Virus record (IMG/VR): IMGVR_UViG_3300030116_004741
Span: 2,507-31,759 of that record
Source of the DNA: a virus
Length of the DNA: 29,253 nt
Direction: 5' to 3' (one strand)
The notes under the pieces were generated by a model. The model made no database searches. It was not told where the DNA came from and saw nothing but the letters and a program-made list of their open reading frames with translations. Shown here in pieces: positions 11,026-28,554 of this stretch; within the stretch, counting starts at the first letter, position 1, and each line of letters begins with the position of its first letter. A program made the translations under genes and the position numbers.

Positions 11026-14000
11026 TCAATTTTGAGCAAGTGGTTTTTCTAATATAGAACCAGTCTGATCGAATGTTTTATCTCCACCAGTTCTCTTAAT
11101 TGTTGGGAATGTTGATATACCAACTCCCGTTGTTATTCCAACAGTATTACCAGTCACTCCAATTGATATTGGATTTGATCCTCGTACAAAACCACTTATT
11201 TTACCAAGTGAATATTTACCAACTGGAATTGCTGCACTACCTGTGCTACTCAAACCAGCATGAACGGTTCCTGAGTGAATTAAGCATGTAATAACCCCAA
11301 CCCTTGCTGGACTTGTTGCACTTGTATGCATTCCTGCCACAACGTAAATGTTATCAGCAAATGAAACACCAAGTCCCACAGTATCAGTATCAACACCACT
11401 GGTATTAATAGAAATAACACCAGACCCACAACGAGTATCAAAGATATAAATTGGACTTCCAATATTTATTGGTGCAAATGTGGATAAAATATCACCTTGA
11501 ATATCGAATTTAATTCCTAATTTACCTGATAATGTTGTTGTTCCTATACCAGTGATAATTCCAGTATTTGTAGTAATTCCCAATCCACTACCTTCAGTTG
11601 CAGTTGATAAATTTTCAAATGTAGTAGAATAAGTGAATGGACTTGATATTAAAACTTGAGGTGCTATGGTATATCCTAAACCTGGATTATTTGGAACAAT
11701 GGATGTAATAGTGCCACCAGCACCAATGGTTGCGGTAGCTGTTGCAGTGCTTCCAACTCCAACAATTGGATTCCCAACATCTATTTTACCCAAATTAGAT
11801 TGTACAGTAACTGGTGGTGCTGATAGTTTGACAGTAGGTGCAACTGTATAACCAGAACCAAAATTAGAGGTGCTAAATCCTGTTACCGTTCCTGCTACAG
11901 AAATAGTGGCAGTTGCCTCAGCTGTTGTAAAATCAATTTGTTCTCTCTTAGAGAGTGAGAACCCTAATTTAGGTGCAGTATCACCTTCATAATTAAATAT
12001 GTCTGTACTATCAACAAATAAAGTAGTATCGGAAGCTGATAAATCACTAATGACTTTTGCTATAGGTGTAATTCTTGGTTCAAGACTTCTTCTCTGTTTG
12101 GAAACTAAGTTTTTATTGATTACCATATCTTCTTTTTGTTTAATTAAAGATATAGGACGGAAAACATTATCATTTATACCCTTTCCAAGATAAACATTTG
12201 TTTGTATCTTTCTAGATGTATTTAAATTAAGCACTGTTCTCTTATCTTGAGGTTTAACAGTTCCAACTCCAGCTATTTGAACTTCATCACCAGCTTCAAT
12301 AGTTAAAGTTTCCGCAAGATTCACCACAGAATCTTCACCAGTGGTTCCTTTATAGAATAATATGGTAACATCATCTTCCTCCAATAATGGTTCTGCAAAG
12401 GTTATCAGATTACCACCAACAATCCTATAACCTGAAACAGGTTCTTGAATCACTCCATTTATGACAACTAAGAATACATCTTCAATATTAACATTTGGAT
12501 TCAGTGATTGATTTAATTCCACACTTACCAATTGAGCATTGACAAATAGTGAAAAACTACGTTGTACTCCGTTTTGAAGACCTTTAATTGAGTCAATATA
12601 ATCAAAGTCACCAAATTGCCATAGTGCAAAAGCATCACTATAGATTTTATCTATAGTTAACCTAGATCTTTCAATAAGATTACTCAAACCTCTTTGAGTA
12701 ACTAATCCAACTGGTTCTACAACATCTCCCTCTTTAAATGCAAATCCTTTATTGACAATTTCATATTCAGATACTTCAAACATTGTTGACCCTATACCAG
12801 TCACTGGTTTTACTATCGCATTAACTCTCAAATCTGTTCCTGTCTCTGATGTTAATCCATCTGCACGTCTTGAAATACCTCTAACTGATAAATTCGAGTA
12901 TGATGGTTCAGAAACAAATATTTGTGGATCTTGATAATCAGTTCCTCCACCACCTACAATTGTAAATGCCAATGTTCCACCAACACCTACTGATGCAGTA
13001 ACGGTTCCTCCAGTTCCAACATTAACTCCAACATTAACACTGAATTTATTGTCATCTATTTTTGTGACTGTTAATACACCATTGTTTAATGCTGATGTAT
13101 TAACAGATGCTGGATCTGTTGATCTCGGATATACGTGAGTAGTTTCAAAATTATCTCTTGAACATGAGAAAGATAAACTTGCATCATCTATTGTAATAGT
13201 ATTGGAATTAGTTAATCCATGGTTAGGAACTGTAAGAATCAATATTCCAGTTGCAGGAGTATATGAAGCATTTGTAGGAGTTAACTGTGAACCACCTGTT
13301 ACATTGATTGCATTTGTATTTGCAGATATGAAACGATGCTCATATCCAAGATCTTGAACAGTAACTCCAATTGAAACTATATCATCATTATATCCAGATC
13401 CAAATGTTAGATTAGGGAAGAATGGATATGCTTCACCAGCAGTTGCACCTGCACCAGTGTAATCAAATGTTCCATCAGTTTTTCCAACACTGATACCAAA
13501 AATATTTGTTGCACCTACAGATACAATTTCAAATGGTGATGTTTTTAATGATAAAGATGGACTGAAACCTATATTATTAACTAATACAAAATCATTTGAA
13601 TTTTTAAATCTATGTTCTCCTTTTGTTCTTATTGACATTATTCCAGTAGAACCATTATAAACTGCATTTTCAACTACCAAATCAGATCCACTAAATGCTA
13701 CACCAACAATCTCTGTTATTGATCCACCTACATTCACAAGTGGTTTAACTACAGCAGGAACTAAAGGAGCATATCCTAATCCATTTATAGTATTTCCTAT
13801 TGATATGGGTATACCACCTCTTGGTAATTCATTAGTATTAATATTATTTGAGGTAAATACATCACCATTACTTGATGTGATACCTGTAAATATAACAGTC
13901 GTTACACCAGTTGCACCACTACCACTCTCAACTAATTTAAAGTTTTTATTTGGATTAAAGTCTGTAGATGGTGATTGGAATATTCCATTTATAAACAATA

Positions 14001-17000
14001 TACCAGATCCACCAGTTGTTCCAATTCCAATCGTATTTGCACCACCAACTCTTAAAGTAAAACTTGATGAAACTCCTGTAAATTGATCTGATATATCATC
14101 ATATATGGCATTTGATTCATAATTATTTCTAAGATATACCCTTCCAGAAAACTTAGATGTTGCAATATCTAAGTCATTTATATCTTTATTTTTACTTATA
14201 TCACCTCTTGGTGGTTTGGTAAAGAATATATCTTTACCTACAATATTATATGATCCTCTTAGTCTACTAACTTCTGTTCCATCTGAATGTATTGTTGATA
14301 TTGTTCCAACAAATCCTCTAGTAACTTGAACAGAATTGAATGTTCCAGCTGTTGCAACAGGACCTCCACCTGTAGTGGCAAAACCAACTCGAACAACTTC
14401 CATAAGTTCATCATCTACTTTTAAAACATCAGTTACAGAGATTGTAGATATTCCACTTAAATGAATTATAGTTGTAGCTGCTCCAATCTGTGATCCCACA
14501 TTACTATTCAATTCATGTGTCACATCACTTCTTATTAATGGATATTGTGCTACATCATCAATTGTAATCAAAGTTTTTTCATTTGATTTTGTCATACTGA
14601 ATTCATGAGCATTACCCTCACCAGGACTCATGAAGGTAACAGCTGTTCCTGCTTTTACAGTTGATATAAAGAATGAATCTTTATCAGGATTTACCACAAA
14701 TACTTTTGAAGGTAATGTATGAATACCAACTCCAGATAATTTATATTGAAGTGCTGTAGATCCAACTCCTACAAAAGTTGATTTAGGTTCATAAACTAAT
14801 TCTTCATTGGGTCTAAAGAAATGATTTTCTATTGTAAATTTACCAGTTCCTAAATTCAATACTGAAGAATTTGATGGATTGAAAGATTTACCAAATATTG
14901 GTATGGAATTAACTTTAGGTGTAAACTGTGTTCTTTCTATTCTGTTACCACTTATGGAATTGTATAATTCAATAGAAACATTTTCAGTGACAACACCATA
15001 ATTCAAATCTTCTGGGATATTTACCGTATCCATTTTTGTGTAGAAACACTGATTGAATGAAACTACTGTTGATACTCCAACTTCATTATCAGGGAAAAAT
15101 TCAGTTAAAAAATTACCTCCAGACAATCTAGCACCAAAGGTTCCTAAACCAGCTGCTGAATCATATTCAGATGTTTTATCTTTTGTAAGTGATAATGATC
15201 CAGACGGTTGTACATATCCATCCACTCCATCGTGTATGGATAACACCTCATAAATTGCTTTAGATGAACCTATACTTACCTCAACAGTAGATTTTACAGC
15301 ATTAAAGAGTAATGAATTTAATTTGGTTAGTGTTGAAATACCAGTATTGCTAGTTGATACACCTGAATATATTAATGTTCTCTCAGATTCATCTTGTTGA
15401 TCTATTGATTTAAATCTATATGTTCCGTCTTCAACACCAGTAGTTCCTATACCAATTATTTTTGATTTTAGTTTTAATCCTGTTGAACCATTGTTTTCAT
15501 AACTTAAAATTAAATTACCACCAGATACTGACGAAGTAACAATTCCTAATTTATTTAATGACAGAGGAGTATTATCAGAAGATACATATCTTTCTGATAG
15601 GAAAGTATCAGTATTTAAATGAGATACAAATGTTTCTACCAGATTACTTTCAACTTGAACACTATCCACTACATGTATCATTGCATATACAGATTCAAAG
15701 TTAGTCACAGGGAAAGCAGCAATAGTGGTGGCGGTTCCAGCAGGGCAGATTTGAATTTTAGAAGTAAGATTAATTGGTCCTATAGAAGTAGTTCCAACAC
15801 CTATAGAAGTAGTGTTAAATTGTGAGGATGCTATTTTTAAATCATAATCCACATTATTTGTTGGATCAGGACTTGTGCTAGGTGTGAACCTTAATTTTGT
15901 TATTTCAGTTAATTCATTTTCATTTAAAGAATATCCAACAAAATTATCATTCTCACCATTTAGTAGATCAGTTCCTAAATTGTTTAAATTAGATTTTTGT
16001 ACTAAGAAATTATTATTACCATCACCTAATAATAATAATTCTGATATTTCTATTTTATTAAACAGTGAAGTATTACTCTTAGTTACTATTAAAAGATTAT
16101 TTAATAATTCTGATTGATTATCAGTCGGAAATTCAAATATATTTAAGAAATTATCAGGATTACCTTGAAGGTTAGTAAATTCATTACTAATATCATCTAT
16201 TGTAAGAACATCATTTGTTTTACAATCGATATAATCTGTCAATCTTATATCTTTGAATAGGATAAGTCTTCCAGTATCATCAAAAACTTCAGTATCAACA
16301 ACTAAATCTATATCTTTTATCTCATCAACTCGTTTTTCATCAAATAAATCAACTATAATATTAAGACCACTAGTTACACCAACTGTAGAGGATGTTGTTG
16401 AAGTTATGCCAGTATCAGCAAAATTCTTCATACCACTAGTGTGTAAAATATTATTAACAGGAGTTTTTAAATCATCCCACTCAATTGGACTCTGAATTGA
16501 GTAAGACATATTTTGATAATAATCATTATCAGGTGTTACTTGAAAATCTTCGTTTAATTTACCTACACTATCATTCCATCCAAGATTTTTCAATATAGAG
16601 ACATCTGTTTTAAATCTAGCAGTATTTCCAACAATTTTTGATATTTCACATTGAACACCTGAAATTTTACCTGTAAGAATATCTCCAGACTTTAATTTAC
16701 CAGCATTTAGTATTTTTAATTTTCCTACATTTATTCTTGTAATTTCAAAATAACCACTTATTTCAAAACCATTTCTAGAAACAGTTACTGTCTCACCTAG
16801 TATAAAATCAGATTGTTTTTCAGATATGAAGAAACTAGGATAATCTGATTCATTAATGATATTTGTAAAAGTTGTTGGAGTTGTTTGTGCTAGACCAGTC
16901 CTGACAGGATTATCAGGAGTTGAAAATTCTGATAAATCAATCGTAACAACTCCTTGACCATTTACATCAGGATCATAATTAGAAACTTTAAGCAACTTAA

Positions 17001-20000
17001 ATCCATAGTCACTTGAATTAAATCCAGACTCTGTATTGGGATTTACAACACCAGTGGTTCCTATACCTACTATACCTTCTATATAAACTCTATCATTAAT
17101 TTTGAAAGGATTAACTGGAAATATAGGATTTGGTGTTGCTATTGTACATGTATATGATGATCCAGCATTTGTTGATTCTATTTTAGTGATTTCAATACCA
17201 TTAGTATTATTAACTGTTCTTAGAACCACTGAATCTGATGGTAAACCTTTTGGTACCTCGACTATATCTACTGATTGAATACTATTTCCTAACATAACAG
17301 GTTCTAAGAACCCACTGTTTATTTGTTCACCAGAATTATCATTAACAATTATAATGTCAGGTGGAGTAATATAATTTGATCCTCCATCAGTTACGCTAAC
17401 AATACCTAAAGTAGATGTTTTTACTATATTTACATTTGAAGGTATGAGACTTTCTGGTTCTAAAGTTTTATCTGAAGAGTATTCAAAACCCTCATTGATA
17501 ATTCTAACTTTCTCAATATTTCCAATACTAGTTGATTTTGGAACTATTACAGCACCTGTTCCCCCAGATGTTGCACCAAATCCAACAAAATTAGGTAATT
17601 TTTTATAGTTTGACCCTTTAGATGTAATTCTTACTTTACTTATTGTTCCTTCTGTATTTTTAGAATTAGTAGTGTAACTTAATGAACTTGTTTCTGTGCT
17701 ACCATAAGATAATTTTTCTGGCACATCTTTTATAAAGAAACTGAATGTAGAGACTCCCGTTCCGATTACTTTATATTCATTACTGTAAATACTATCAACA
17801 AAAGATATTTTTGAGTAATCTTTAACATCAAAATCAGATGTTCCTATGGTTCCTGATTTTTCTAAATTGTAAAATAATACATTTGGAATACTAGTACCAT
17901 ATCCTATCGATAATTTAGCTCCAGATAATCCTGCTGTACCTACTCCCGAAATATTAAAGATTGAAGATTCACCATCAGATATGAAATTATTTTTAAATTT
18001 ATTATCATAATATATTTTAAATTCATATCCACTTAATGAAGAGTCTGAAAGATTAAAAACTAAATTATTATTATTAATTGATGTAATACTAGGATTAATT
18101 AATGATATAGTTTGAGAATTTCCACCAGTAGATGCAATACCTACAATATTAGGTATTAATTTTGATAAATCAAATGTAGTTTCACATAATTTAAAATTAT
18201 TGTCATCAATTTTATATACAAAATAATCTTTATTTTCAAGTCCCTCTGGTAAAAGATCAGATGAATATTTTACTTTATCACCAGTTTGTAGTCCATGTTT
18301 AGTAATATTGAGTGAGTTTGATGCGGGAATAACATTTGTAGAAGTAAATCCTATAGGATTTATTAAGATTTGACCTGTTACAGTATCTCTAATAACCCTT
18401 ACATCAGTTGAAGTTCCTATACCCACTGATAAATTTGGTTGAACAGTTAAGGATATTTTATCACCAGTGGATAATTTATGAGATTCAGTTGTAGTGACAG
18501 ATGATTTAATTCTCTCTACCTTTGATGTAATTTCATCAAATACAGTTTCAAATTGGTATTTACCACGTTGATTTTCTGCAACATTTGATGTTACATTTGA
18601 TATATTTACAATATAAACTTCTGAAGTACCAACCCCTGTTTTAATACCAATATGATTACTATCTTTACTTACGGCATATACAGTTTCTGGTAAGGTAAAA
18701 CTACTTGCTCCATTATCTGAACTTACTAATAAACTTTCGTTAACGGCTCCTGTAGGAGTGGAAAATTTAAGTTTTTGATTTGTTTTGAATGGGTGATTAT
18801 TAATAAAAATTTGTTTTTTAGGAAGGTTTCTTGTAATGTCTTTACCAGCAAAATCAAATGTCCTTGTTAAATCCTCTCCATCTTCGGTTCCCACTCCAAC
18901 AGTTTCTAATGGGTTGAAAAATACTTTTTGGTTTAATTCTGTATCAAAGAAAGAAATATTTTTGGAAATTGTAAATTTATTAGGTAGATAATTGACAATA
19001 GATCCTGCAGGATGAGTTGTTCCTTCAGAACTATCAGCAGCCCGTTCAACAGTAAGAATATTTTCGTTTCCGTAAATATTAAGAATTTTTAGAGTTTCTG
19101 TTCCTATTCCAATACTACTTCCAATTGTTACCGATGTTGGTATATCAGAAACAAATATTTCAGTAGATAAACCTGCTGACGGAGATCCAGTAATAGTTGA
19201 AATTGTTTTGGAAGAAAAAGTTGTTACACCAATTGAAAATGAATCATTCAATATAGAAATATCTGTTGATAATCCTGATATTTTAACGATATCACCAGTT
19301 TCAAAAATGTGATTATTTGGAGTGACAACAGTTACATTTTGTTCTGACCATAAAATAACAGAATCTGTTATTTCAATAATTTCTGTTTCAATTTTACTAA
19401 CAGTTTTACCTTCAACATCAGAAATAGCAGCTTCGAAACCTTCACCATCTTGGTCATCAAATATTAAAGGTTCACCCACTTTATAATTTTGTCCACCTTC
19501 AACAATGTCAAAATCAGTAACTGTTCCAGTTGATAATGACTCAATTTCTATTTTTTGATTTTCAATTTCATTTGTTTCAACTAAAAAATCGTTATTTGCA
19601 AATTCTTCTGATACTTTGTATGGAAAAGTGTTTCTCAATAAACCACTTAAATTAAAATCAAAAGTTGTTTGATCATTATCAATTATAAAATTATCTTCAA
19701 TTAGTTCAGACCTATAATTATCACCTATAAAATAAGGGAATGTTGGGACATTAAGATCATCTACTGTTGCATGATAAGCATATACACCATTTGGAAACTC
19801 TTTTGTTTTTTCAAATCTTCCGTTATACACGTCTAAATTCGCATCAGATGCGTTAAATTTATGATCCTCAAGGAAAGTCCCCACCTCAAATCCAGAGGGT
19901 CTATCCTCCACGTTAGAGGCATCTACGGTGTATCCTGATTTTAATCTAATAATAGTTCCTGGATTATTAACAGAATTTTCTGGATTTTTAGATCCAAAAG

Positions 20001-23000
20001 GACCATATATTGGATTACCATCATAAGCCCAACCTATTATATTACTAACATTGTCTGGACTTCCCGCATAATCTCCAAATAGACTGGTGCTATATCCAGT
20101 TACAGAATACTTTAATTTATTACTAGAATCACGTAATTGTTGATAATCGGGAGAATTTACTTTAAAATTATTAAGAGTGAGTGATCTAACTTCAGAATCA
20201 AAAAATGCATTCTGACCTGCTGATTTTACATTAATTGATGTATCAGTAGAATATCCAATACCAGCACTTACAATTACAACATCAGAAATAACAGAATCAT
20301 TTGTATTTGTGTTTATTCCAATAACAGGTTTTAACTTAGCACCTGCACCAAGTCCTGTAGGATCTACAATTTCAAGATCAGGTGCTGAAAAATATTCTTG
20401 TCCCCCAAAATCAATATTTACGTCAATTATTTGACCATTTGAAATGACAGGTTTTAGAACAGCATTTTTACCATTTTTTAAAGTTATTAATGGTTTTTTA
20501 TGATTATTAATTATAGTTGATCCATATCCTGTACCTGTTTCATAAAGATATGATTGTATAATTGAACCTCTTGCTTTTACTGTTAATTCAATTTCTGTAG
20601 GAACTGCACTTTCTGATGCTACACCAACAGCAGAAAATCCTACAAAAGCTTTTATATCAGGGTATTTGAATACTTGATATCCTGCTCCAATTGAAGATAG
20701 TGAAACAAATTTACCTCTTTCCAAATTAGATGTAATAGTTCCACCGATTCCAGCATTTGCTAATTTGAAAGAATTATCATCTTGTTTTAAAACATAATAT
20801 GAAGTTAGGGTGTTTAATCCTACAATTGATTCTAGATTTGCAATATCAGTTATACCGTCTCCAAGTTCAGTAGAATATTCTATTAAGTCTCCAGTTTCAA
20901 ATCCATGATTATTAAAATTAATTTCATTAAATGACGTTGATATTCCTGAAGTTTTTACTCTTAATTTTCTATTTGTGTATCCACTACCTTGATTAATTAC
21001 TTTTACATCTGTTAATGTTTTTCTTAAACCTATTTTGAATGAATGTGTTCCTGATGCTGTTTCATTACTATTAGCAAAATTTACAGTATTAATTCCTGCT
21101 ACCAAATCATCAAGAGTTTCAAATATTCTAATTACCCTAGAATTACGAACATCTGCAAAATATAATGCATTATCAAGTAAAGTTCTAGTACCATCTCCAA
21201 TTTTAATTTGAGCATTAACTCCAGAATCATATATTATTGGTTCATTTTGAGAAAAATTGTGGTCAGATTCAAATTCAATGAATCCCATATTACTAGAAGA
21301 AGAAGTTGTTAAACCACCCAAATTAGTTGTTGGTCTAGCATCAAAAAATTCTTGTCTAAATCTTGTTCCTATAATAGGTTCTAATACACATCCACTACCA
21401 TTTCCACCAGTTACACCTATTGAAATAATTTTGTCAACATCAAAATTCTGTGGGTCTACAAATACATCTAAAATTTTACCAGTAACTACAGGTTGAACTA
21501 AAGCAGTTTGTCCAATACCATTTGATACTGATATTTTTGGTAAATTTACAACATCAAAATTATCACCACCACTTAACGTATCAACTTTTGTTAGTGGTCC
21601 AAAAAACATCTTTTCATTTGATTTGTAGTTAGATATTTCAACACCATTAATCAACATTCCAGTTTCACCTATGGGTGTTGCATTACTACCACTATTAGTA
21701 ATTTTTTGCTCTAGAGGAAATTTTTTAATTAATTTTTGAGCACCTATTATTGAGGATTTTTGATTTTCTAAGACTAAATTATGAACTCCATCATTTATAC
21801 TTTGTGTAAAAGTTAATTTTTTATCATCTTCAATGCTTCCTGCTGATCCATATAATTCAATACTACTAGCAGTAATTTCTTTAACATAATAAACTCCCGT
21901 ATCCAATCCAACAAGAGTATCACCATTTATAGTGCTATAAAATACTCTATCTCCTGTTTTAAATGAGTGATTACTAGCAAATTCTATCGTAGAAAAACTA
22001 GTTTTATCCAAACTGGCACCACCAAGTATGGCTCCATCTGGTTGAACTGGCACTGGAGGATTACCACTTACCTTTGATAAATCAAAATTTTTATTATTAA
22101 TGCTTATATTAATTTCTTTTGTAAAATTAGTAGGTACATTTGATAAAGAAATAAGATTAGATGGAAGTGAGTTTGATGTTACATATGCTTCTTTATCTTT
22201 AAAATATACATTTTGAATATCTGAAATTACAACATCATTTCCAAATTCTAATGGTGTTCCACTACTTTTTGCCTTATTTAACTTCTTTCTAATTTTATAA
22301 TTTCTACTGGTGTCAAAAGTAAATCCACTAGTATTGGTTAGGAAAATTCTACTTTGCGATACTTCATTAACTACTTCATTTACAATATTTTTTATGACTG
22401 CAGGTTTATCCCATAAAATAACATTACTATCACGATCAACAATTTGTACAGCATCTCCAATTTTTAAACTGGACCTATCAACCATACTTAAAACTGTAAC
22501 AATATCATCGTTTTCTCCTGAATTATCAATAATTTCATTTATAAAATATGATGATGAGGTATTATAAATCCATGAATTTGCAAATATTTCTTTGTAAGTT
22601 TTATTATCAAAATTATCATGATCATTAGATAAATTTTCAACTTTATCACCAATTGATTTAACTGAAATTATTTCACCTTCTTCAACATCTACTTGTTCAG
22701 TTTGTTCAAATTCTGATAATACACCAGTAAGTCTAAGAGTTACTTTTTTATCAGAATCTCCATCTTCAAATCCAAAATAAGTTATATCCGATCTTATATT
22801 TTCAATAGGTAATATTGGACTGTTAAATGAGTCTGTGCTAGTTGCCGTACAACCTAAAAATTGGTTAACCGTTTTATCAGTATATGAAATTACATTACTA
22901 TTAGTTATGATTGTGCCTGTAGTACCAAATCCAACTGTAGAATCGACAGTTATAACACTAGCCCCTGCTGATACATTTTCTATAGCTTTGGAGTTAGGAA

Positions 23001-23973
23001 CAACTATAAAATCATCCCCTACATCGGAACCCTCATCATATCCAACAAACAATGCAATTTTATAATATGTTGTTATCCCACTCAATCCAGAATCAACTCT
23101 TTGGAAAGGTTCAATTTCTGATATTGATGCATTAATATCAGGATCTATATCACTTCTGAATAAAGATTGCCCTACTAAACCTTTTAGTAAATTTTTTGCT
23201 GCAAGATTAGATGTATTTTCTTCTATTAATTCACCTACACAAATTCTACGTCTAACATAATTTGCAGATGATGGTTTGATTAATCTTTCTTCTAAGTTTA
23301 ATATATTAGAATCTACACCATATAAAACATTAAATAAAATCCTAAATGATTCATTTGTTCCCTTTGTCTGATATAAAGAACGTGCTTCACCAATAAATGT
23401 TCCAACATCAAGTTTAGGTTGAAAATTAGTTTCTTCTAATCCAGGTAAGAAAGTTTTTTTAAATTTTTTATAAAATTCTTTTAAAAATAAAGAACTTAAG
23501 TTTTGAATCCTAGATGCTCCTTCATGCTCTGCTGCAGATGAGGAGTTAAATACTAAATCTTCTTTATTTGTATCTGAATGATAACTAGTAATACCACTAA
23601 ATCCACGAACACATCCAGTAAAAGAATCTGTAGTAATTCCAGTGTAAGTGATTATTTCATCATCTATCTTTAATAAACCATATTCATTTGGAAATCCTTT
23701 TGTACTAGTAACATTAATTGTTTCGTCACCAACAGTGGTAACACCGACTGTAGTGGAACTATCAACTATAACTTCTGGTGTTAAAGAATTAAAATCTAGA
23801 TATTTGCTTAAATTCTCTGATATATCTGCTATACCACCTTGATACTCTTGAGAAATATAATATTGCTTTAAAAAATCAACAGTCCTAGGACTCTCATCCT
23901 TAATGAAATTAGGAAGTTGATTTGATAGGATATCTTGAATTTTTATTTTACTTACAATCCCTGTTTCTATCAT
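11026..23973 (-). CDS. 7: Giant baseplate wedge protein in the gp7 position, 4315 residues
   Basis: One uninterrupted frame between gp6 and gp8, where T4 has gene 7 (about 1030 residues). Near residue 195-215 it reads ARSLYQTKGTNESFRILFNV, which resembles T4 gp7 SRSYDFYSTKG and FLFKVLY, normally near the gp7 C-terminus; the preceding region (NFIKDESPRTVDFLKQYY at 22, FLKEFYKKFKKTFLPG at 165) also fits a gp7-like helical domain. The remaining ~4000 residues are Gly/Ser/Thr/Ile-rich beta repeats: about ten H-x-F/L-x-T-G-D units, about fifteen G-x-G-Y units, four E-I/M..RG..H modules and two INGxxQ modules (LFINGIFQSP near 3330, VVINGVIQEP near 3830). A YHYH domain spans about 1285-1420. No signal peptide or catalytic site is evident. 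The ATG overlaps the gp6 stop (ATGA). It presumably forms the wedge core plus a long extension towards fibres. The gp7 assignment is positional plus the short similarity. Confidence 0.75.
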   Translation of the reverse strand: MIETGIVSKIKIQDILSNQLPNFIKDESPRTVDFLKQYYISQEYQGGIADISENLSKYLDFNSLTPEVIVDSSTTVGVTTVGDETINVTSTKGFPNEYGLLKIDDEIITYTGITTDSFTGCVRGFSGITSYHSDTNKEDLVFNSSSAAEHEGASRIQNLSSLFLKEFYKKFKKTFLPGLEETNFQPKLDVGTFIGEARSLYQTKGTNESFRILFNVLYGVDSNILNLEERLIKPSSANYVRRRICVGELIEENTSNLAAKNLLKGLVGQSLFRSDIDPDINASISEIEPFQRVDSGLSGITTYYKIALFVGYDEGSDVGDDFIVVPNSKAIENVSAGASVITVDSTVGFGTTGTIITNSNVISYTDKTVNQFLGCTATSTDSFNSPILPIENIRSDITYFGFEDGDSDKKVTLRLTGVLSEFEQTEQVDVEEGEIISVKSIGDKVENLSNDHDNFDNKTYKEIFANSWIYNTSSSYFINEIIDNSGENDDIVTVLSMVDRSSLKIGDAVQIVDRDSNVILWDKPAVIKNIVNEVVNEVSQSRIFLTNTSGFTFDTSRNYKIRKKLNKAKSSGTPLEFGNDVVISDIQNVYFKDKEAYVTSNSLPSNLISLSNVPTNFTKEINISINNKNFDLSKVSGNPPVPVQPDGAILGGASLDKTSFSTIEFASNHSFKTGDRVFYSTINGDTLVGLDTGVYYVKEITASSIELYGSAGSIEDDKKLTFTQSINDGVHNLVLENQKSSIIGAQKLIKKFPLEQKITNSGSNATPIGETGMLINGVEISNYKSNEKMFFGPLTKVDTLSGGDNFDVVNLPKISVSNGIGQTALVQPVVTGKILDVFVDPQNFDVDKIISIGVTGGNGSGCVLEPIIGTRFRQEFFDARPTTNLGGLTTSSSSNMGFIEFESDHNFSQNEPIIYDSGVNAQIKIGDGTRTLLDNALYFADVRNSRVIRIFETLDDLVAGINTVNFANSNETASGTHSFKIGLRKTLTDVKVINQGSGYTNRKLRVKTSGISTSFNEINFNNHGFETGDLIEYSTELGDGITDIANLESIVGLNTLTSYYVLKQDDNSFKLANAGIGGTITSNLERGKFVSLSSIGAGYQVFKYPDIKAFVGFSAVGVASESAVPTEIELTVKARGSIIQSYLYETGTGYGSTIINNHKKPLITLKNGKNAVLKPVISNGQIIDVNIDFGGQEYFSAPDLEIVDPTGLGAGAKLKPVIGINTNTNDSVISDVVIVSAGIGYSTDTSINVKSAGQNAFFDSEVRSLTLNNFKVNSPDYQQLRDSSNKLKYSVTGYSTSLFGDYAGSPDNVSNIIGWAYDGNPIYGPFGSKNPENSVNNPGTIIRLKSGYTVDASNVEDRPSGFEVGTFLEDHKFNASDANLDVYNGRFEKTKEFPNGVYAYHATVDDLNVPTFPYFIGDNYRSELIEDNFIIDNDQTTFDFNLSGLLRNTFPYKVSEEFANNDFLVETNEIENQKIEIESLSTGTVTDFDIVEGGQNYKVGEPLIFDDQDGEGFEAAISDVEGKTVSKIETEIIEITDSVILWSEQNVTVVTPNNHIFETGDIVKISGLSTDISILNDSFSIGVTTFSSKTISTITGSPSAGLSTEIFVSDIPTSVTIGSSIGIGTETLKILNIYGNENILTVERAADSSEGTTHPAGSIVNYLPNKFTISKNISFFDTELNQKVFFNPLETVGVGTEDGEDLTRTFDFAGKDITRNLPKKQIFINNHPFKTNQKLKFSTPTGAVNESLLVSSDNGASSFTLPETVYAVSKDSNHIGIKTGVGTSEVYIVNISNVTSNVAENQRGKYQFETVFDEITSKVERIKSSVTTTESHKLSTGDKISLTVQPNLSVGIGTSTDVRVIRDTVTGQILINPIGFTSTNVIPASNSLNITKHGLQTGDKVKYSSDLLPEGLENKDYFVYKIDDNNFKLCETTFDLSKLIPNIVGIASTGGNSQTISLINPSITSINNNNLVFNLSDSSLSGYEFKIYYDNKFKNNFISDGESSIFNISGVGTAGLSGAKLSIGYGTSIPNVLFYNLEKSGTIGTSDFDVKDYSKISFVDSIYSNEYKVIGTGVSTFSFFIKDVPEKLSYGSTETSSLSYTTNSKNTEGTISKVRITSKGSNYKKLPNFVGFGATSGGTGAVIVPKSTSIGNIEKVRIINEGFEYSSDKTLEPESLIPSNVNIVKTSTLGIVSVTDGGSNYITPPDIIIVNDNSGEQINSGFLEPVMLGNSIQSVDIVEVPKGLPSDSVVLRTVNNTNGIEITKIESTNAGSSYTCTIATPNPIFPVNPFKINDRVYIEGIVGIGTTGVVNPNTESGFNSSDYGFKLLKVSNYDPDVNGQGVVTIDLSEFSTPDNPVRTGLAQTTPTTFTNIINESDYPSFFISEKQSDFILGETVTVSRNGFEISGYFEITRINVGKLKILNAGKLKSGDILTGKISGVQCEISKIVGNTARFKTDVSILKNLGWNDSVGKLNEDFQVTPDNDYYQNMSYSIQSPIEWDDLKTPVNNILHTSGMKNFADTGITSTTSSTVGVTSGLNIIVDLFDEKRVDEIKDIDLVVDTEVFDDTGRLILFKDIRLTDYIDCKTNDVLTIDDISNEFTNLQGNPDNFLNIFEFPTDNQSELLNNLLIVTKSNTSLFNKIEISELLLLGDGNNNFLVQKSNLNNLGTDLLNGENDNFVGYSLNENELTEITKLRFTPSTSPDPTNNVDYDLKIASSQFNTTSIGVGTTSIGPINLTSKIQICPAGTATTIAAFPVTNFESVYAMIHVVDSVQVESNLVETFVSHLNTDTFLSERYVSSDNTPLSLNKLGIVTSSVSGGNLILSYENNGSTGLKLKSKIIGIGTTGVEDGTYRFKSIDQQDESERTLIYSGVSTSNTGISTLTKLNSLLFNAVKSTVEVSIGSSKAIYEVLSIHDGVDGYVQPSGSLSLTKDKTSEYDSAAGLGTFGARLSGGNFLTEFFPDNEVGVSTVVSFNQCFYTKMDTVNIPEDLNYGVVTENVSIELYNSISGNRIERTQFTPKVNSIPIFGKSFNPSNSSVLNLGTGKFTIENHFFRPNEELVYEPKSTFVGVGSTALQYKLSGVGIHTLPSKVFVVNPDKDSFFISTVKAGTAVTFMSPGEGNAHEFSMTKSNEKTLITIDDVAQYPLIRSDVTHELNSNVGSQIGAATTIIHLSGISTISVTDVLKVDDELMEVVRVGFATTGGGPVATAGTFNSVQVTRGFVGTISTIHSDGTEVSRLRGSYNIVGKDIFFTKPPRGDISKNKDINDLDIATSKFSGRVYLRNNYESNAIYDDISDQFTGVSSSFTLRVGGANTIGIGTTGGSGILFINGIFQSPSTDFNPNKNFKLVESGSGATGVTTVIFTGITSSNGDVFTSNNINTNELPRGGIPISIGNTINGLGYAPLVPAVVKPLVNVGGSITEIVGVAFSGSDLVVENAVYNGSTGIMSIRTKGEHRFKNSNDFVLVNNIGFSPSLSLKTSPFEIVSVGATNIFGISVGKTDGTFDYTGAGATAGEAYPFFPNLTFGSGYNDDIVSIGVTVQDLGYEHRFISANTNAINVTGGSQLTPTNASYTPATGILILTVPNHGLTNSNTITIDDASLSFSCSRDNFETTHVYPRSTDPASVNTSALNNGVLTVTKIDDNKFSVNVGVNVGTGGTVTASVGVGGTLAFTIVGGGGTDYQDPQIFVSEPSYSNLSVRGISRRADGLTSETGTDLRVNAIVKPVTGIGSTMFEVSEYEIVNKGFAFKEGDVVEPVGLVTQRGLSNLIERSRLTIDKIYSDAFALWQFGDFDYIDSIKGLQNGVQRSFSLFVNAQLVSVELNQSLNPNVNIEDVFLVVINGVIQEPVSGYRIVGGNLITFAEPLLEEDDVTILFYKGTTGEDSVVNLAETLTIEAGDEVQIAGVGTVKPQDKRTVLNLNTSRKIQTNVYLGKGINDNVFRPISLIKQKEDMVINKNLVSKQRRSLEPRITPIAKVISDLSASDTTLFVDSTDIFNYEGDTAPKLGFSLSKREQIDFTTAEATATISVAGTVTGFSTSNFGSGYTVAPTVKLSAPPVTVQSNLGKIDVGNPIVGVGSTATATATIGAGGTITSIVPNNPGLGYTIAPQVLISSPFTYSTTFENLSTATEGSGLGITTNTGIITGIGTTTLSGKLGIKFDIQGDILSTFAPINIGSPIYIFDTRCGSGVISINTSGVDTDTVGLGVSFADNIYVVAGMHTSATSPARVGVITCLIHSGTVHAGLSSTGSAAIPVGKYSLGKISGFVRGSNPISIGVTGNTVGITTGVGISTFPTIKRTGGDKTFDQTGSILEKPLAQN
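13205..22000 (-). repeat. Protein-level repeat family H-x-F/L-x-T-G-D in the giant gene
   Basis: About ten dispersed units share a His, a hydrophobic residue, then T-G-D or similar and a beta-strand: NHSFKTGDRVFY (~671), DHNFSQNEPIIY (~908), NHGFETGDLIEY (~1024), NHIFETGDIVKI (~1557), NHPFKTNQKLKF (~1728), SHKLSTGDKISL (~1833), KHGLQTGDKVKY (~1896), NHFFRPNEELVY (~3054), EHRFKNSNDFVL (~3454) and NHGLTNSNTITI (~3586). They are usually followed by a YYV or Y-V-type strand and an E/K-L element. Spacing is irregular, so this is a divergent domain repeat rather than a DNA tandem repeat. Confidence 0.75.
19720..20110 (-). other. YHYH domain inside the giant wedge protein
   Basis: Residues about 1285-1420 of the 4315-residue protein contain IIGWAYDGNPIYGPFG, then NLDVYNGRFEKTKEFPNG followed directly by VYAYHATVDD and FPYFIGDNY. 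This order (DGxPIYGP, LDxxNGRF, P-x-GxYxYH, FPYxxG) is the signature of the YHYH domain, found in bacterial secreted or surface proteins and possibly metal- or ligand-binding. The first His of the usual YHYH is replaced (YAYH). Its role in a baseplate is unknown. Confidence 0.78.
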
Positions 23974-25907
23974 GTTCTAATTATTTGTCCGTTTGGGTAA
24001 CTTGATGAATAAAAATCTCTTGTGAATTGAACTCCAGAAACTTCATCACCAGACGATATAACATCTCTAACCATATTTAGAGAACTATTTGAGATGTCTA
24101 ATGACACATACAAATCTTTTAACCCAACTACGTCATTTGATTCTGGAAAAGCTTGAATTTCAATGATATTATTTGGTTTTGTAGTAGATAATATGTTTAT
24201 TGTTGAAAGATTTACTTCACCTTTAATATAATCTATTGATCCTGCCGAAGATACAATATTTCGAATTGTTCCATCACCTAATACTTTAATTATTCTCAAA
24301 ACTCCCGTTTTAAGATCAGAATTTGGAATATCTGACAAATATACTACTCCTGATGTTCCTAAAATGGTAAAACCAGTTGATTTAATGTTATATCCGTTTG
24401 GATCAACGTAAAATCTATTACCAAAACATAATTCATATTGAGCAAACTTATTTATGGATACCTGTAAATTTCTTCTCATTCTAATTTTTGTAATATTTGA
24501 AGTAATTCCTTGATTTGTATCATCAATGACCTTAAGAAGTTTACTATATTTCAATCTTCCACCAAATTTATTCAAATTTATCGATTTTGAGTAGTCTGTT
24601 AAGGATTTTGTAACACTTGTCTTTAATTCTTCTGCAGTAGAAACAAAAGAACTATTATAATAGATGTTTGAATCAAGTTCAATGTATAATATTTTTAAAT
24701 CTACAATTCTTTGGTTGATTCCTGATATTGAATACTGTTTTAACTTGGATAAAATTTGACTTTTAGAAAAATCAGATACTAAATTACCATTTTTTGGTTT
24801 TATACTGATTGCAACTGTTCCAAACTCAGGAGGATCAAGTTCTTCTCCCCCAATTACTGAAACTGACTCTGTATTTGGATAAATTTTCTTAATTATTGCC
24901 TCATAATCCCTTGCAGTGACTGCACGATTCTGTGATGAATATGAAAGTGGGGAATAGTACTTGATAGAATCTAATGTTTCAATATCTGAACCATTTTGAG
25001 ACTTTAAAATTGTAGATACAGTGGAACCTACAAGATTTGCAGAAATACCATCTTCCCTTGTTAATTTTCCTGAGAAAACAAAAAGTTGAGCATCGTTTCC
25101 ATCAGCACCATCAGTCGTAATATATCTAACGTTTATCTCATCACCATCTTCTCCTGTACCAGTACCTAATTTTTTACCAAAATATCCATCTCCAAACTTT
25201 AATTCATACCTTTCATCTTGAACTTCCTTTATTAAGAAGATTTTTGAAGTTGAATCGACAGTTATAATGTCATCCACGAGTGTATATTCCGTTCCTTTTC
25301 CAGCAGTTCCTGCTGCTTTTACATTTACAACAATTTTAGAGGTATCTATTGAAGGATTATCTAAAATAAATCTCTGATCAAGTGACCCATCATATAAAAA
25401 TCTACGTTCAAGGTAAGTTCCTTGAAAAATACTAATGTTTTCAAACGTTGCTATTTTTTGATTTGGATTACTATCAGGTGCATTTGGATCAGTTTGAGTT
25501 AAAACTGTAATTGGTTGAGTAATTGCAAATGTATACGTCTCATTATCAACGTCTCCAGTGCACACTATACCTGGTTCTAAGGTCAATGTATCAGTATTAT
25601 CACTAACAGTAACATTAATCGTTATTTGTGCGTTTGCTGCCGTTTTAGACCGTGGTGTGTATCCAATATTTGAAGATAATGACACCACATTTTCTCTTAA
25701 AGTTGCAGAATCTAGAAAAGATTCATTCACAACCATGTTTGAGTTGAATGCGGTGATATAAGTATTGTATGCTAACGTGTCAATTAAGACAGAAAAGTTC
25801 GAACCATCAAAATCAAAGTCCGTAAAACTGGAATTTGCACGAAGATAGTCCTTAATTGATGTTTTTATCTGATCGAAATCAAGATTTGTGAAATTTGAAA
25901 AAGGCAT
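23970..25907 (-). CDS. 6: Baseplate wedge protein gp6
   Basis: Central baseplate wedge subunit; in T4 gp6 dimers form the continuous ring that ties wedges together. Length (645) is close to T4 gp6 (660). The N-terminus FTNLDFDQIKTSIKDYL, SNFSVLIDTLAYNTYITAFN and ESFLDSATLRENVVSL is the standard gp6 opening in T4-like phages, and residues ~315-360 (YSSQNRAVTARDYEAIIKKI, then YPNTESVSVIGGEE, FGTVAISIKP) are the conserved baseplate-J-like core. The C-terminal part contains IDYIKGEVNL, also usual. Its ATG lies one base after the gp25 stop with AAGG as Shine-Dalgarno inside the gp25 end, and its stop overlaps the giant gene's start by four bases. It is therefore the middle gene of the gp25-gp6-gp7-like wedge operon. 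Confidence 0.95.
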   Translation of the reverse strand: MPFSNFTNLDFDQIKTSIKDYLRANSSFTDFDFDGSNFSVLIDTLAYNTYITAFNSNMVVNESFLDSATLRENVVSLSSNIGYTPRSKTAANAQITINVTVSDNTDTLTLEPGIVCTGDVDNETYTFAITQPITVLTQTDPNAPDSNPNQKIATFENISIFQGTYLERRFLYDGSLDQRFILDNPSIDTSKIVVNVKAAGTAGKGTEYTLVDDIITVDSTSKIFLIKEVQDERYELKFGDGYFGKKLGTGTGEDGDEINVRYITTDGADGNDAQLFVFSGKLTREDGISANLVGSTVSTILKSQNGSDIETLDSIKYYSPLSYSSQNRAVTARDYEAIIKKIYPNTESVSVIGGEELDPPEFGTVAISIKPKNGNLVSDFSKSQILSKLKQYSISGINQRIVDLKILYIELDSNIYYNSSFVSTAEELKTSVTKSLTDYSKSINLNKFGGRLKYSKLLKVIDDTNQGITSNITKIRMRRNLQVSINKFAQYELCFGNRFYVDPNGYNIKSTGFTILGTSGVVYLSDIPNSDLKTGVLRIIKVLGDGTIRNIVSSAGSIDYIKGEVNLSTINILSTTKPNNIIEIQAFPESNDVVGLKDLYVSLDISNSSLNMVRDVISSGDEVSGVQFTRDFYSSSYPNGQIIRT

Positions 25908-25908
25908 T

Positions 25909-26310
25909 TTACCTTGTTGCCTCTAATATGAATGAATATTCTTGAGTTGGGAACTCTTGTCCGACTATATCATATATAACAACAATTTCAAATTCATTGT
26001 CATCTGGTGATGGTTCAACTTCAACCCTTACATTATCAACTCTTGGTTCAAAATTGTTAATTGCGGTCTTAATTTGTTCTTGAATGATGTTGGCTGTACC
26101 AAAATCAACAAAATCAAAGAGACTTTTGTATACATCTGACCCAAAATCTGGATTAAAAAATTTTTCAGTCGGTATGGTTTCGACAATATTACGCACAGAT
26201 CGACTAATTGCTCTCTCATTTTTGAGAATTGGTAAATCTTTTGTAACTGGATGGGGTGTAAACGATAAACTTATGTCTTTAAAAGATTTCGAAACCCTTT
26301 TATATGCCAT
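25909..26310 (-). CDS. 25: Baseplate wedge protein gp25
   Basis: Small baseplate wedge subunit of the gp25/lysozyme-like family, which joins the inner baseplate ring to the first sheath layer; equivalents occur in all contractile tails and in type VI secretion (TssE). Length 133 equals T4 gp25 (132). Visible landmarks are SLSFTPHPVTKDLPILKNE near residue 15, RAISRSVRNIVET, FFNPDFGSDVYKSLFD, and the family hallmark E-P-R at 88-90 (NNFEPRV) followed by a V-x-V strand. It heads the wedge operon: a perfect late promoter sits 18 bases before the ATG and gp6 follows after one base. No strong Shine-Dalgarno is seen (leader AAAACTTGGTTC). Confidence 0.96.
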   Translation of the reverse strand: MAYKRVSKSFKDISLSFTPHPVTKDLPILKNERAISRSVRNIVETIPTEKFFNPDFGSDVYKSLFDFVDFGTANIIQEQIKTAINNFEPRVDNVRVEVEPSPDDNEFEIVVIYDIVGQEFPTQEYSFILEATR

Positions 26311-26327
26311 GAACCAAGTTTTATATT

Positions 26328-26335
26328 TATTTATA
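26328..26335 (-). promoter_or_regulatory. T4-type late promoter for gp25-gp6-gp7 operon (TATAAATA)
   Basis: Perfect TATAAATA on the minus strand in the 43-base gap before gp25, ending 18 bases from the ATG, followed by AATATAAAAC. Both the motif and the spacing match the element before gp8, which supports a real sigma-gp55-type late promoter rather than chance in AT-rich DNA. Confidence 0.8.
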
Positions 26336-26353: not shown

Positions 26354-27085
26354 TTATCCCAATAAATGATCAATGTTAATATTTACGTGGTCTTCTTCTA
26401 GATTTGCTGTATTTCCTGCTCCAATATTCATGTCAACTGACCTTTCTTTTGCTGTTTTCCAAAAATAATTCTCTTCTGAACCCAATCCATCACGATCATG
26501 ACCATTTTCCACCTGATAGTACACGGTTGATACCTTAAAATCAGGAATCTTAGGTGTCTCAGGAGTGATACTGTTGTCATATATCCTCATTCTGTTGTTT
26601 GGATAAAGACAAAACTGCCCATTGTCCAATTCTATGAGGTTATGAGACTTATGTTCGGCAGGTTGTTCACTTGTTGAGTAGTCAATTGCGTCTACATCGG
26701 AATGATAGTTGTCAAGAGTACATATGTACGTGCCCGTCTGAGTACCATAGTCTCTTGTATAGACTTCATAGTGCATTGAACCGATAAATTGCTTCTGAAC
26801 GGAGATTACACCATAGTCCATACAGTTCCAAAACTGTAGATTATGAAGAGTCATATCAGGGTCTGGTGTCTCTGGAGATGAAACAAATGCAGAAATCGGT
26901 AACTTATCAAACATGGCGGCATACTCAGGTAAATAAGTCTCAAAATAAAAGGCACGACCAGGTATACTTTTGGCAGATACCCAGACTCCCTTGACAAATT
27001 CACCATGACCACTCTTATGGTCAGTTAAATATTCTTTTCGAACCCAAACTTCATAAGAGGGTAGATTTGTAATTAATGTACTCAT
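26354..27085 (-). CDS. Conserved unknown protein, 243 residues, upstream of gp25
   Basis: I do not recognise a named family. The protein starts MSTLITNLPSYEVWVRKEYL, which I recall as strongly conserved next to gp25 in T4-like cyanophages. It is rich in Tyr, Trp, His and Asp: FVKGVWVSAKSIPGRAFYFE, LHNLQFWNCMDYGV, HYEVYTRDYGTQTG, NGQFCLYPNNRMRIYD and EENYFWKTAKERS. This looks like a compact soluble enzyme-like or beta-rich domain rather than a fibre, with a short disordered-looking acidic tail (NLEEDHVNINIDHLLG). It does not resemble T4 gp53 or gp5. The ATG overlaps the upstream stop by four bases (ATGA). It lies before the gp25 late promoter, so its expression may follow the glycosyltransferase promoter instead. 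Structural, assembly-factor and early functions all remain open. Confidence 0.8.
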   Translation of the reverse strand: MSTLITNLPSYEVWVRKEYLTDHKSGHGEFVKGVWVSAKSIPGRAFYFETYLPEYAAMFDKLPISAFVSSPETPDPDMTLHNLQFWNCMDYGVISVQKQFIGSMHYEVYTRDYGTQTGTYICTLDNYHSDVDAIDYSTSEQPAEHKSHNLIELDNGQFCLYPNNRMRIYDNSITPETPKIPDFKVSTVYYQVENGHDRDGLGSEENYFWKTAKERSVDMNIGAGNTANLEEDHVNINIDHLLG

Positions 27086-27255
27086 TCTTCATATTCTTTT
27101 TGAATTTCAGTTGTTAAATCGAGAGGGTTAGGAAGATTGCCATCATAAAACTGTTGGGCAAGGTCTTCCATTAAATCAAGATACTCCTCTTCTGTGAGAT
27201 TCTTTCCGAGAATCTCTTGTCCACGACGGACTTTATATAACTCTTGTCTTTTCAT
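27082..27255 (-). CDS. Small unknown protein, 57 residues
   Basis: A short frame read directly from the sequence: it begins MKRQELYKVRRGQEILGKNL and ends IQKEYEE. The N-terminal half is basic and the C-terminal half acidic, with an EEEYLDLMEDLAQQFYDG helix-like stretch, so it is probably a small helical protein. The start codon lies inside the end of the glycosyltransferase gene (23-base overlap), with AGGA just before the ATG, and its stop overlaps the next start by four bases (ATGA). That arrangement links it to both neighbours by translational coupling and is the best evidence that it is real. Function unknown. Confidence 0.75.
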   Translation of the reverse strand: MKRQELYKVRRGQEILGKNLTEEEYLDLMEDLAQQFYDGNLPNPLDLTTEIQKEYEE

Positions 27256-28009
27256 GTCCTACACGAATTCGAGGATCGCACCATATCTCAAATCCTGCTT
27301 CTTTTGCATCGAGACAAAACGAGACATCCTCGCCGCACATGTCCTGTACCTCACCAGACTCAAAGACCTGCATCTTTGGAGCAAACCATGGATAAGGCAT
27401 ACCTTCGTGTTCAAAAACTCCATTTCGAATTAATAACCATCCGAAACCTGTATAGTCTACGGTGAAAGGTTGTTTTCTTTTTGATATACTTTCGAGTGTC
27501 TCGTGATTCATTACACCACCATTATTTCGAAAATCATCTTCCTCTAACCAATGTGCCACCGATGTTGTCTTACCATCTTCGGTGCAGTACCAACCTGCCA
27601 CAATACTTCTTTCTTCTTTTCCTTGTGGATTGGCATCTAATATTAACTGAAAGAATTTCTCTGAGTTAAAAACAATGTCAGAATCAATCCAAAGTTGGTA
27701 ATCATACTTTAACTTTCCATCCCATGGAATTTGGTTTGGTCCTCGAAGAACGTTTGCACCTAAACACTTACAACGGGCAAAATTGACCATTGATGAATAG
27801 TCCTGTGATATTTGTATACTTGCTCCTGCTTGAACAAGATCAAAACACAATTGGACGAATGCCTTTAAAAATGTGTAAGATACTCCTCGACCTGGTAAAC
27901 AAAATACAATCTGTTTACCTTTTACTAATTCTTTTGCCCTCGCATAGTCCCATTCTGGTTTTTTCTGAACTGAGGGTTGTTTTGCTTTTACTGTAAATCC
28001 TTTAGCCAT
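27233..28009 (-). CDS. Putative GT-A glycosyltransferase, 258 residues
   Basis: Probable nucleotide-sugar glycosyltransferase of the GT-A/GT2 type. Visible elements are a first Rossmann strand IVFCLPGRG at 34-42, LVQAGASIQIS near 58-68, RCKCLGANVLRG, the D-x-D motif in LWIDSDIVF (D109 and D111; metal and sugar-nucleotide binding), a substrate-loop region GWYCTEDGKT, TGFGWLLIRNGVFE near 187-200, and GEDVSFCLDAKEAGF at 226-240 followed by DPRIRVGHEK, a typical catalytic Glu/Asp plus terminal His pattern. The first 20 residues (Lys/Gln-rich) are probably a flexible tail. It could modify phage DNA, virion proteins or host surface polysaccharide. A consensus sigma-70 promoter precedes it, unlike the late promoters of the baseplate genes, suggesting earlier expression. 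No Shine-Dalgarno is obvious. Confidence 0.72.
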   Translation of the reverse strand: MAKGFTVKAKQPSVQKKPEWDYARAKELVKGKQIVFCLPGRGVSYTFLKAFVQLCFDLVQAGASIQISQDYSSMVNFARCKCLGANVLRGPNQIPWDGKLKYDYQLWIDSDIVFNSEKFFQLILDANPQGKEERSIVAGWYCTEDGKTTSVAHWLEEDDFRNNGGVMNHETLESISKRKQPFTVDYTGFGWLLIRNGVFEHEGMPYPWFAPKMQVFESGEVQDMCGEDVSFCLDAKEAGFEIWCDPRIRVGHEKTRVI

Positions 28010-28029: not shown

Positions 28030-28058
28030 ATTATACATTATTATATAGTGGTTGTCAA
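28030..28058 (-). promoter_or_regulatory. Consensus sigma-70 promoter (TTGACA-17-TATAAT)
   Basis: On the minus strand, TTGACA (28058-28053) and TATAAT (28035-28030) are both perfect and separated by exactly 17 bases. The glycosyltransferase ATG lies 20 bases after the -10 box. The -35 box overlaps the last codons of the preceding 57-residue gene. It should be readable by unmodified host RNA polymerase, so it marks an early or middle transcription start. Confidence 0.85.
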
Positions 28059-28460: not shown

Positions 28461-28512
28461 TCTGCCTTTCGTAACACTTTGTAGACTAGGTTCCCATGCC
28501 GTTTTTATACAC

Positions 28513-28531
28513 GGGGGGCATCAACGCCCCC
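28513..28531 (-). other. GC-rich hairpin (terminator-like, no U-tract)
   Basis: GGGGGC at 28514-28519 pairs with GCCCCC at 28526-28531 around a six-base loop; on the minus-strand transcript a G-U pair can extend it. It is the most GC-rich spot in the window. The transcript continues GUGUAUAAAAACGG with no U-run, so it is not a classical Rho-independent terminator; pausing, RNA protection or processing are alternatives. Confidence 0.6.
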
Positions 28532-28554
28532 ACTGCTGCAATCACGAACGAATG

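Follow-up and report, generated by a model that had tools for sequence, protein, structure and literature searches.

A Conserved, Predicted GT-A Glycosyltransferase With an Early-Type Promoter Beside the Baseplate Genes of Cyanomyoviruses: Tail Proteins as a Tentative Acceptor

Introduction

The DNA glucosyltransferases of T4 are early phage glycosyltransferases with a GT-B fold, and they need hydroxymethylated cytosine. Sugars may also be carried by the virion: the mycobacteriophages Che8 and Rita have glycosyltransferase genes together with virion glycans, the targets there being the major capsid proteins, and in Maravista the glycosyltransferase genes lie near the genome end (PMC11256854, in the portion at hand). 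Virion glycosylation as such is not new. Among viral proteins of known structure, the best match to the one described here is A197 of STIV, also a small, soluble viral GT-A protein with recognisable sequence similarity, although it comes from a different class of virus whose host domain is archaeal; the acceptor of A197 is itself unproven, and STIV has a glycosylated coat protein (excerpted text of PMC4187194). LH3, COLGALT1, and mimivirus R699 also reach high structural scores (Z 13.9–16.9), but with identities of just 10–16%, a likeness at the level of the fold only.

Here we analyzed a window (the whole stretch of 29,253 nucleotides presented above) from a 42.5-kb IMG/VR virus fragment, a record with one match to the glycosyltransferase. 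The same gene is found in P-SSM2 as PSSM2_106 ("T4-GC: 102," phrog_1574), with 83.7% identity and likewise upstream of gp25. Its family, phrog_1574, is listed without function, a text search on the family name returned no paper, and the available parts of the cyanophage glycosyltransferase literature (PMC7029224, PMC9602691, PMC8557907) do not describe this gene.

Gene, Family, and Predicted Fold

The features of the window used throughout are the following:

27233–28009, minus strand: GT-A glycosyltransferase gene, phrog_1574, 258 aa (phrog_1574 profile, predicted fold, invariant motifs)
28030–28058, minus strand: putative sigma-70 (early-type) promoter of the glycosyltransferase gene, TTGACA-N17-TATAAT, 12/12 match
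27082–27255, minus strand: small ORF of 57 aa, phrog_3252, with a tblastn homologue in 89 relatives
26354–27085, minus strand: 243-aa protein, phrog_3704 (labelled "ferredoxin," doubtful), E 9e-113
26324–26335, minus strand: T4-type late promoter motif, two overlapping TATAAATA-type matches upstream of gp25, at the start of the late baseplate block
25909–26310, minus strand: gp25 baseplate wedge subunit (PF04965, phrog_261)
23970–25907, minus strand: gp6 baseplate wedge subunit (phrog_219, PF21379)
11026–23973, minus strand: gp7-type baseplate wedge protein, 4315 aa (phrog_2885)

The glycosyltransferase ORF starts with ATG, and the plus-strand reading of the same interval is interrupted by stops. 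Its product matches the phrog_1574 profile over residues 20–258 (E 5.3e-117), with a weak second match to phrog_34859, "glycosyltransferase" (E 3.7e-06). No Pfam family was found for it at E ≤0.1, and it does not reach the curated cut-off of PF00535 (GT2-type), which a jumbo-phage relative barely clears (24.0 vs 23.3); 22 family members likewise gave zero matches to Pfam and NCBIfam at E ≤0.01.

From the letters alone, the earlier note had predicted an active GT-A-like enzyme on the basis of a DSD motif and a GEDVSFC...GH pattern, and had proposed structure-based family assignment as the check. The window protein was aligned with 21 proteins from IMG/VR (22 in total), and the alignment was used as input for an AlphaFold model (mean pLDDT 90.0, pTM 0.86), which has a GT-A fold and whose top PDB matches are GT-A enzymes, so that neither a missing fold nor a broken metal site was found. 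The best of these matches is STIV A197 (2c0n; Z 17.3, rmsd 2.6 Å, 166 residues aligned, 22% identity), which the family profile detects by sequence too (E 3.4e-05), with the DxD and ED motifs aligned; further ones are human LH3 (Z 16.9), mimivirus R699 (16.3), Mnn9 (15.8), and COLGALT1 (13.9). The motifs are present as described (DSD at 109–111, GEDVSFC at 226–232, GH at 251–252), and D109, D111, G188, G190, E227, D228, and H252 are invariant in all 22 aligned members, position 226 being G in 13, S in 8, and W in 1.

In GT-A enzymes the active site has the DxD, the xED, the G-loop, and the C-His as conserved elements, the Asp of the xED being the usual inverting base (PMC7185993, in the text available). 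By this scheme G188 and G190 would belong to the G-loop. A figure legend (excerpt of PMC4187194) names Asp151 as the catalytic base of A197, and in our alignment D228 appears to be its equivalent; since the Asp of the GED motif occupies the catalytic-base position of inverting enzymes, an inverting mechanism seems likely. The protein lacks a membrane segment (its highest hydropathy mean over 19 residues is 1.3). It is very probably a soluble, metal- and nucleotide-sugar-dependent GT-A glycosyltransferase. Several members (L016, L041, L212 from P-TIM68, and L085 from B23) have an insertion of ~30–45 residues at ~125, located between the region of the DxD strand and the strand that follows.

Distribution and Conservation

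Among 50,697 records of a phage collection, 103 match the glycosyltransferase at 1e-5, nearly all of them (101) with ≥80% of the protein covered and 94 with identities of 60–90%. By name they are 83 Synechococcus, 6 Prochlorococcus, 6 Cyanophage, 4 Marine, and 4 other, many being isolates of one species. Most of the matches listed are called "hypothetical protein" and few "glycosyltransferase." The gene appears restricted to a subset of cyanomyoviruses, because gp25 is present in 451 records of the same collection at the stricter 1e-15. A scan of IMG/VR gave at least 600 matches. In S-SKS1 (L207, ~3501–4258) the match is split in two pieces in different frames, by a frameshift or a sequencing error, and tandem copies occur in L183 (5363–6714), L157 (2392–3834), and L258 (6418–7648), the first two with methyltransferase-type genes close by.

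The glycosyltransferase is much more conserved than its structural neighbors. For hits that cover ≥70% of the query, the median identity to the window is 82.7% (157 loci), vs 59.6% for gp25 (148) and 55.8% for gp6 (124), and it exceeds that of gp25 in all 149 loci with both. Median pN/pS values are 0.11/0.81 for the glycosyltransferase, 0.27/0.68 for gp25, and 0.27/0.67 for gp6; some contigs are counted twice, and these figures refer to loci rather than to independent viruses. The gene is under strong purifying selection, with few replacement changes and saturated synonymous sites. Recent gene transfer as the cause of the high identity was rejected on account of this saturation (median pS 0.81).

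As to a host origin, a pattern-based scan of genome contigs gave 19 loci. Ten of them, at 73–91% identity, lie on contigs of MAGs with unrelated taxon labels and are probably misbinned cyanophages; six (L178–L183) have 36–41% identity, and the last three are weak or partial matches. None of the 19 loci of this single scan carried a picocyanobacterium label, which does not in itself prove absence. A viral-contig scan with the L183 protein gave zero matches. Taken together, the ORF is a real gene, well beyond what chance would give, and phrog_1574 a conserved, mostly unannotated phage GT-A enzyme that is probably active, going by its model and its motifs.

Genomic Context and Promoters

The earlier note had placed the gene next to baseplate genes, and as to position this is true and conserved: gp25, gp6, the gp7-type gene, gp8, and fibre-like ORFs all lie nearby on the minus strand. 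Considering the 137 loci with the glycosyltransferase and at least 2.5 kb downstream, gp25 is found within 4 kb downstream on the same strand in 117 (median 1.2 kb) and at 4.25 kb in two more (one contig counted twice), the remaining 18 being relatives of ≤51% identity. The same holds for 12 of the 13 named gene-bearing cyanomyoviruses, the exception being S-CAM7. What has to be amended is the expression, which seems to be separate. In T4, sigma-70 promoters are classed as early and TATAAAT as late (methods of PMC3037559, in the part seen). A sigma-70 site with at most one mismatch is found upstream of the glycosyltransferase in 101 of the 141 distinct upstream stretches of the window's clade, vs 1.0 in shuffles, and TATAAATA in none of the 141. 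Upstream of gp25, TATAAATA is found in 76 of 142 relatives, vs 3.2 in shuffles, and a sigma-70 site with at most one mismatch in none. For 13 named phages, the best sigma-70 site upstream of the glycosyltransferase has at most one mismatch in 5 and at most two in 11 (among them ACG-2014f, 117 nt upstream), S-CAM7 and S-SCSM2R being without one (best, 4 mismatches). Ahead of gp25, an exact TATAAATA occurs in just 5 of 12 named cyanomyoviruses with the gene, and several others, outside this count, show CTAAATA-like words there. With separate early and late promoters, the gene seems to close an early block that adjoins the late one. The predicted early-type promoter corrects its reading as part of a baseplate operon, and adjacency to the baseplate genes alone is therefore no pointer to a tail target.

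Downstream, the glycosyltransferase gene and the 57-aa ORF share 23 nt, where the former ends and the latter starts, and an ATGA combines the stop of the small ORF with the next start (27085); this arrangement suggests a translationally coupled three-gene unit. In 53 of 135 loci an ORF of 40 aa or more runs across the end of the glycosyltransferase gene. The 57-aa product (phrog_3252, function not listed) is conserved and acidic and might be a partner protein. The 243-aa protein that follows probably shares a transcript with the glycosyltransferase. It has zero Pfam hits and just 3 Cys, and the "ferredoxin" label of phrog_3704, copied in the Bellamy record, looks like a transfer error.

The cargo between the gene and gp25 varies and includes 2OG oxygenases, phrog_3704 proteins, PurM, ferredoxin, CP12, PrnA, and, in 26 of 135 loci by eye, S-adenosylmethionine decarboxylase-like ORFs. 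In one contig (IMGVR_UViG_3300020459_000017, loci L042/L125) this interval contains ~4 kb of ORFs that by eye look related to sugar nucleotides (cupin isomerase, nucleotidyltransferase, phosphatase). On the other side of the gene, a GC-rich inverted repeat (GGGGGC-loop-GCCCCC) was seen by eye between early ORFs at 28510–28535 of the window; the terminator listing does not contain it.

Tail Proteins as a Tentative Acceptor

Our preferred reading, held tentatively, is that the acceptor could be the phage's own virion tail proteins. The glycosyltransferase and the two small genes downstream would be transcribed early from their own sigma-70 promoter, as predicted from the sequence, so the enzyme would be ready in the cytoplasm once the late tail proteins appear. 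There it would add a sugar to Ser or Thr of the large baseplate or tail-fibre proteins, at the latest while these assemble, and would itself be left out of the particle, going by the labels of one GenBank record. In that record, S-SCSM1, the glycosyltransferase is SSCSM1_8, a "hypothetical protein" without virion label, while the note "virion protein" stands on gp25, gp6, the gp7-type wedge protein, and numerous further structural proteins, and also serves as the name of some proteins of unknown function. For this phage 45 virion proteins were found by mass spectrometry (PMC9602691, in the excerpt available), and SSCSM1_8 was apparently not detected in particles.

The 4315-aa gp7-type protein may be one acceptor. 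Of 20 records examined, 13 carry the glycosyltransferase; the N-terminus of the gp7-type protein matches at 5e-133 to 3.5e-51 in 12 gene-bearing cyanomyoviruses vs 1.3e-32 to 1.0e-23 in 7 without the gene, and S-TIM61 has the glycosyltransferase and no gp7-type match. The gene tracks a baseplate type, a pattern that common descent alone would also give. Taking the window proteins alone, without a control set, Ser plus Thr amounts to 24.2% in a 207-aa fibre-like ORF, 21.2% in a 113-aa ORF, 20.3% in the gp7-type protein, 20.0% in gp6, 19.1% in both gp8 and a 2484-aa protein, and 13.5% in gp25.

S-CAM7 shows a different arrangement. The glycosyltransferase sits at 182 kb of the 216-kb record, ~100 kb from the gp7-type match (70 kb); gp25 is not nearby, and the gene has presumably moved to its present place. 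On the same strand, 444 bp upstream and separated by a single small ORF, a 1041-aa gene ends; its best PHROG lacks a function label and the next matches are tail-fibre and collagen-like tail families. PHROG tail-fibre genes also lie within two ORFs of the divergent relatives L179, L181, L188, L189, L194, and L204 (L189 and L204 being one lineage), and an annotated tail fibre lies near the gene in S-TIM61. The MW202711-type branch has a tail-tubular-A homologue no more than two ORFs after the gene in 30 of 33 loci, and a major-capsid homologue no more than three ORFs before it in 16 of 29.

Fibre adjacency was put to three successive tests on a growing set of loci, with one locus per lineage and the other small ORFs of the same locus as background. 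The first test gave 5/12 lineages vs 1.18 expected, with two tandem pairs counted twice; the second 7/25 vs 3.58 (P 0.018), with three clusters dropped for too few flanking ORFs; and the final one 14/46 vs 9.71 (P 0.044), with four clusters dropped and a fibre definition widened by a BLAST set that includes fibres already seen beside the gene, hence biased upward. The statistic is weak, marginally above background. In the window's own clade only 2% of the loci have such a neighbor, and none was found in the L158–L163 and L196–L205 group, L091–L096, L190, or L193; many lineages have instead terminase/portal, kinase, DNA-metabolism, or queC/queD genes. In a PHROG tally of 115 neighbor ORFs from 34 divergent loci, tail-fibre families come first (6 and 5 members), then terminase (4), with QueC among those with 3, for the best 25 of 132 families.

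Some individual arrangements can be described. In L179 (5965–7572) and L181 (1801–3242), both bacterial MAG contigs, a relative is directly followed by a tail-fibre-like gene, and because a PEP-utilising-enzyme gene lies upstream in L181, the pair of relative and fibre may be chromosomal. L248 (1527–11259) has in a row an epimerase/dehydratase (PF01370, E 1.1e-61), a glycosyltransferase relative, and a fibre-like ORF of >2,200 residues. To mycobacteriophage glycosyltransferases, tblastn gave only 35-residue matches (14% of the query, E ~4–5), those listed being from phages other than Che8.

A collagen-type system was considered because of the LH3, COLGALT1, and R699 matches and the 2OG oxygenases near the P-SSM2 gene, some cyanophages carrying such oxygenases beside the glycosyltransferase. 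Hydroxylation plus glycosylation in the manner of LH3 was set aside: the interval to gp25 contains a homologue of the P-SSM2 oxygenase in no more than 7 of 135 loci, and ORFs that look like oxygenases by eye in 6 others, which form two clusters of 3. The LH3 alignments fall on chain residues 293–521, which we take to be a non-catalytic accessory domain, and the match therefore indicates fold resemblance only. No Gly-X-Y run of more than 3 triplets was found in the window proteins scanned; collagen-like tail matches were found among the neighbors in S-CAM7 and L194.

Alternative Acceptors

The close rival of tail-protein glycosylation is modification of the host surface, as part of an early host takeover in which the enzyme would add sugar to envelope glycan precursors (lipopolysaccharide or exopolysaccharide) at the cytoplasmic face of the membrane and, for example, block the adsorption of other phages. 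We consider it possible, if on balance unlikely. The early-type promoter suits a host target as well, as does the lack of a virion label on SSCSM1_8, and host-surface change is the usual reading of pelagimyophage and cyanomyophage glycosyltransferases (PMC7029224, in the available text). S-SCSM1 has 13 cell-wall/sugar genes (the excerpt of PMC9602691), and in one relative contig the sugar-nucleotide-type ORFs seen by eye are beside the gene. The lack of a membrane segment speaks to some degree against it, although a peripheral enzyme needs none, and the fibre and tail-gene neighbors of the divergent relatives would be left unexplained. The variable cargo of the interval (PurM, ferredoxin, CP12, PrnA, 2OG oxygenases) and, again, the promoter would also fit a gene that belongs to this early cargo and glycosylates a host protein or small molecule, e.g., for metabolic reprogramming, but this has no specific candidate target, and the gene is constant while the cargo varies, which makes it distinctly unlikely. 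That the protein is an inactive structural or regulatory GT-A-like protein and no transferase would agree with the LH3 alignments falling on the presumed accessory domain; with D109, D111, E227, D228, and H252 invariant in 22/22 and strong purifying selection, we give this hardly any credence. The rest of the odds, after these readings and that of DNA below, goes to other possibilities.

Phage DNA had been listed among the targets in the earlier note, and it is very improbable that the enzyme glycosylates a modified base in it: the idea is disfavored in the window's clade, less so in some distant relatives. The window's record is a 42.5-kb fragment; the DNA-modification families covered, in other cyanophage records, were PF00303, PF00145, TGT, and QueC. 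PF00303 (the dCMP hydroxymethylase family, which would have to supply the hydroxymethylated cytosine that the T4 enzymes need) and PF00145 are absent from 10/10 gene-bearing cyanomyovirus records, as they are from 3/3 cyanomyovirus records without the gene; S-TIM61, a more distant gene-bearing cyanophage, has both. In the T4 control PF00303 matched at three places, and we take one of them to be gene 42. TGT (PF01702) is absent from all 21 cyanophage records, 13 of them gene-bearing cyanomyoviruses, and QueC gave only short partial matches in 3 of the 21, all gene-bearing (Bellamy, P-TIM68, and S-SSM6a). What favors the idea elsewhere is that in L156/L239, L246, and L238 the relative lies among QueC (PF06508), QueD/PTPS (PF01242), and radical-SAM genes, the radical-SAM neighbor exceeding the Pfam cut-off only in L246, and that in L243 QueC is 6 ORFs from the relative.

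These clusters (L239 5994–9250, on the L156 contig; L246 6028–9306; L238 5309–9985; L243 3683–7660) resemble 7-deazaguanine DNA-modification clusters, and a glycosylated 7-deazaguanine base is a testable idea. The single mention of a glycosyltransferase in the available part of PMC12028318 is not tied to a 7-deazaguanine cluster. One phrog_1574 family might have been reused on different polymers, in cyanomyoviruses and further aquatic phages on tail-fibre and baseplate proteins, and in the phages whose copy has queC/queD/radical-SAM neighbors on 7-deazaguanine DNA, a proposal that we regard as rather improbable.

Biological Implications

The carriers of this gene are mostly viruses of Synechococcus and Prochlorococcus, yet among the matches listed its product is mostly "hypothetical"; they include isolates such as P-SSM2, S-SCSM1, and Bellamy. 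If the family has indeed been reused, marine cyanophages with the gene would make glycoprotein tails with an enzyme that is in stock early and absent from the particle, and a glycosylated 7-deazaguanine base would occur in some phages. If tail proteins are glycosylated, marine phages would widely carry sugar on their adsorption machinery, with a bearing on host range and on competition between phages.
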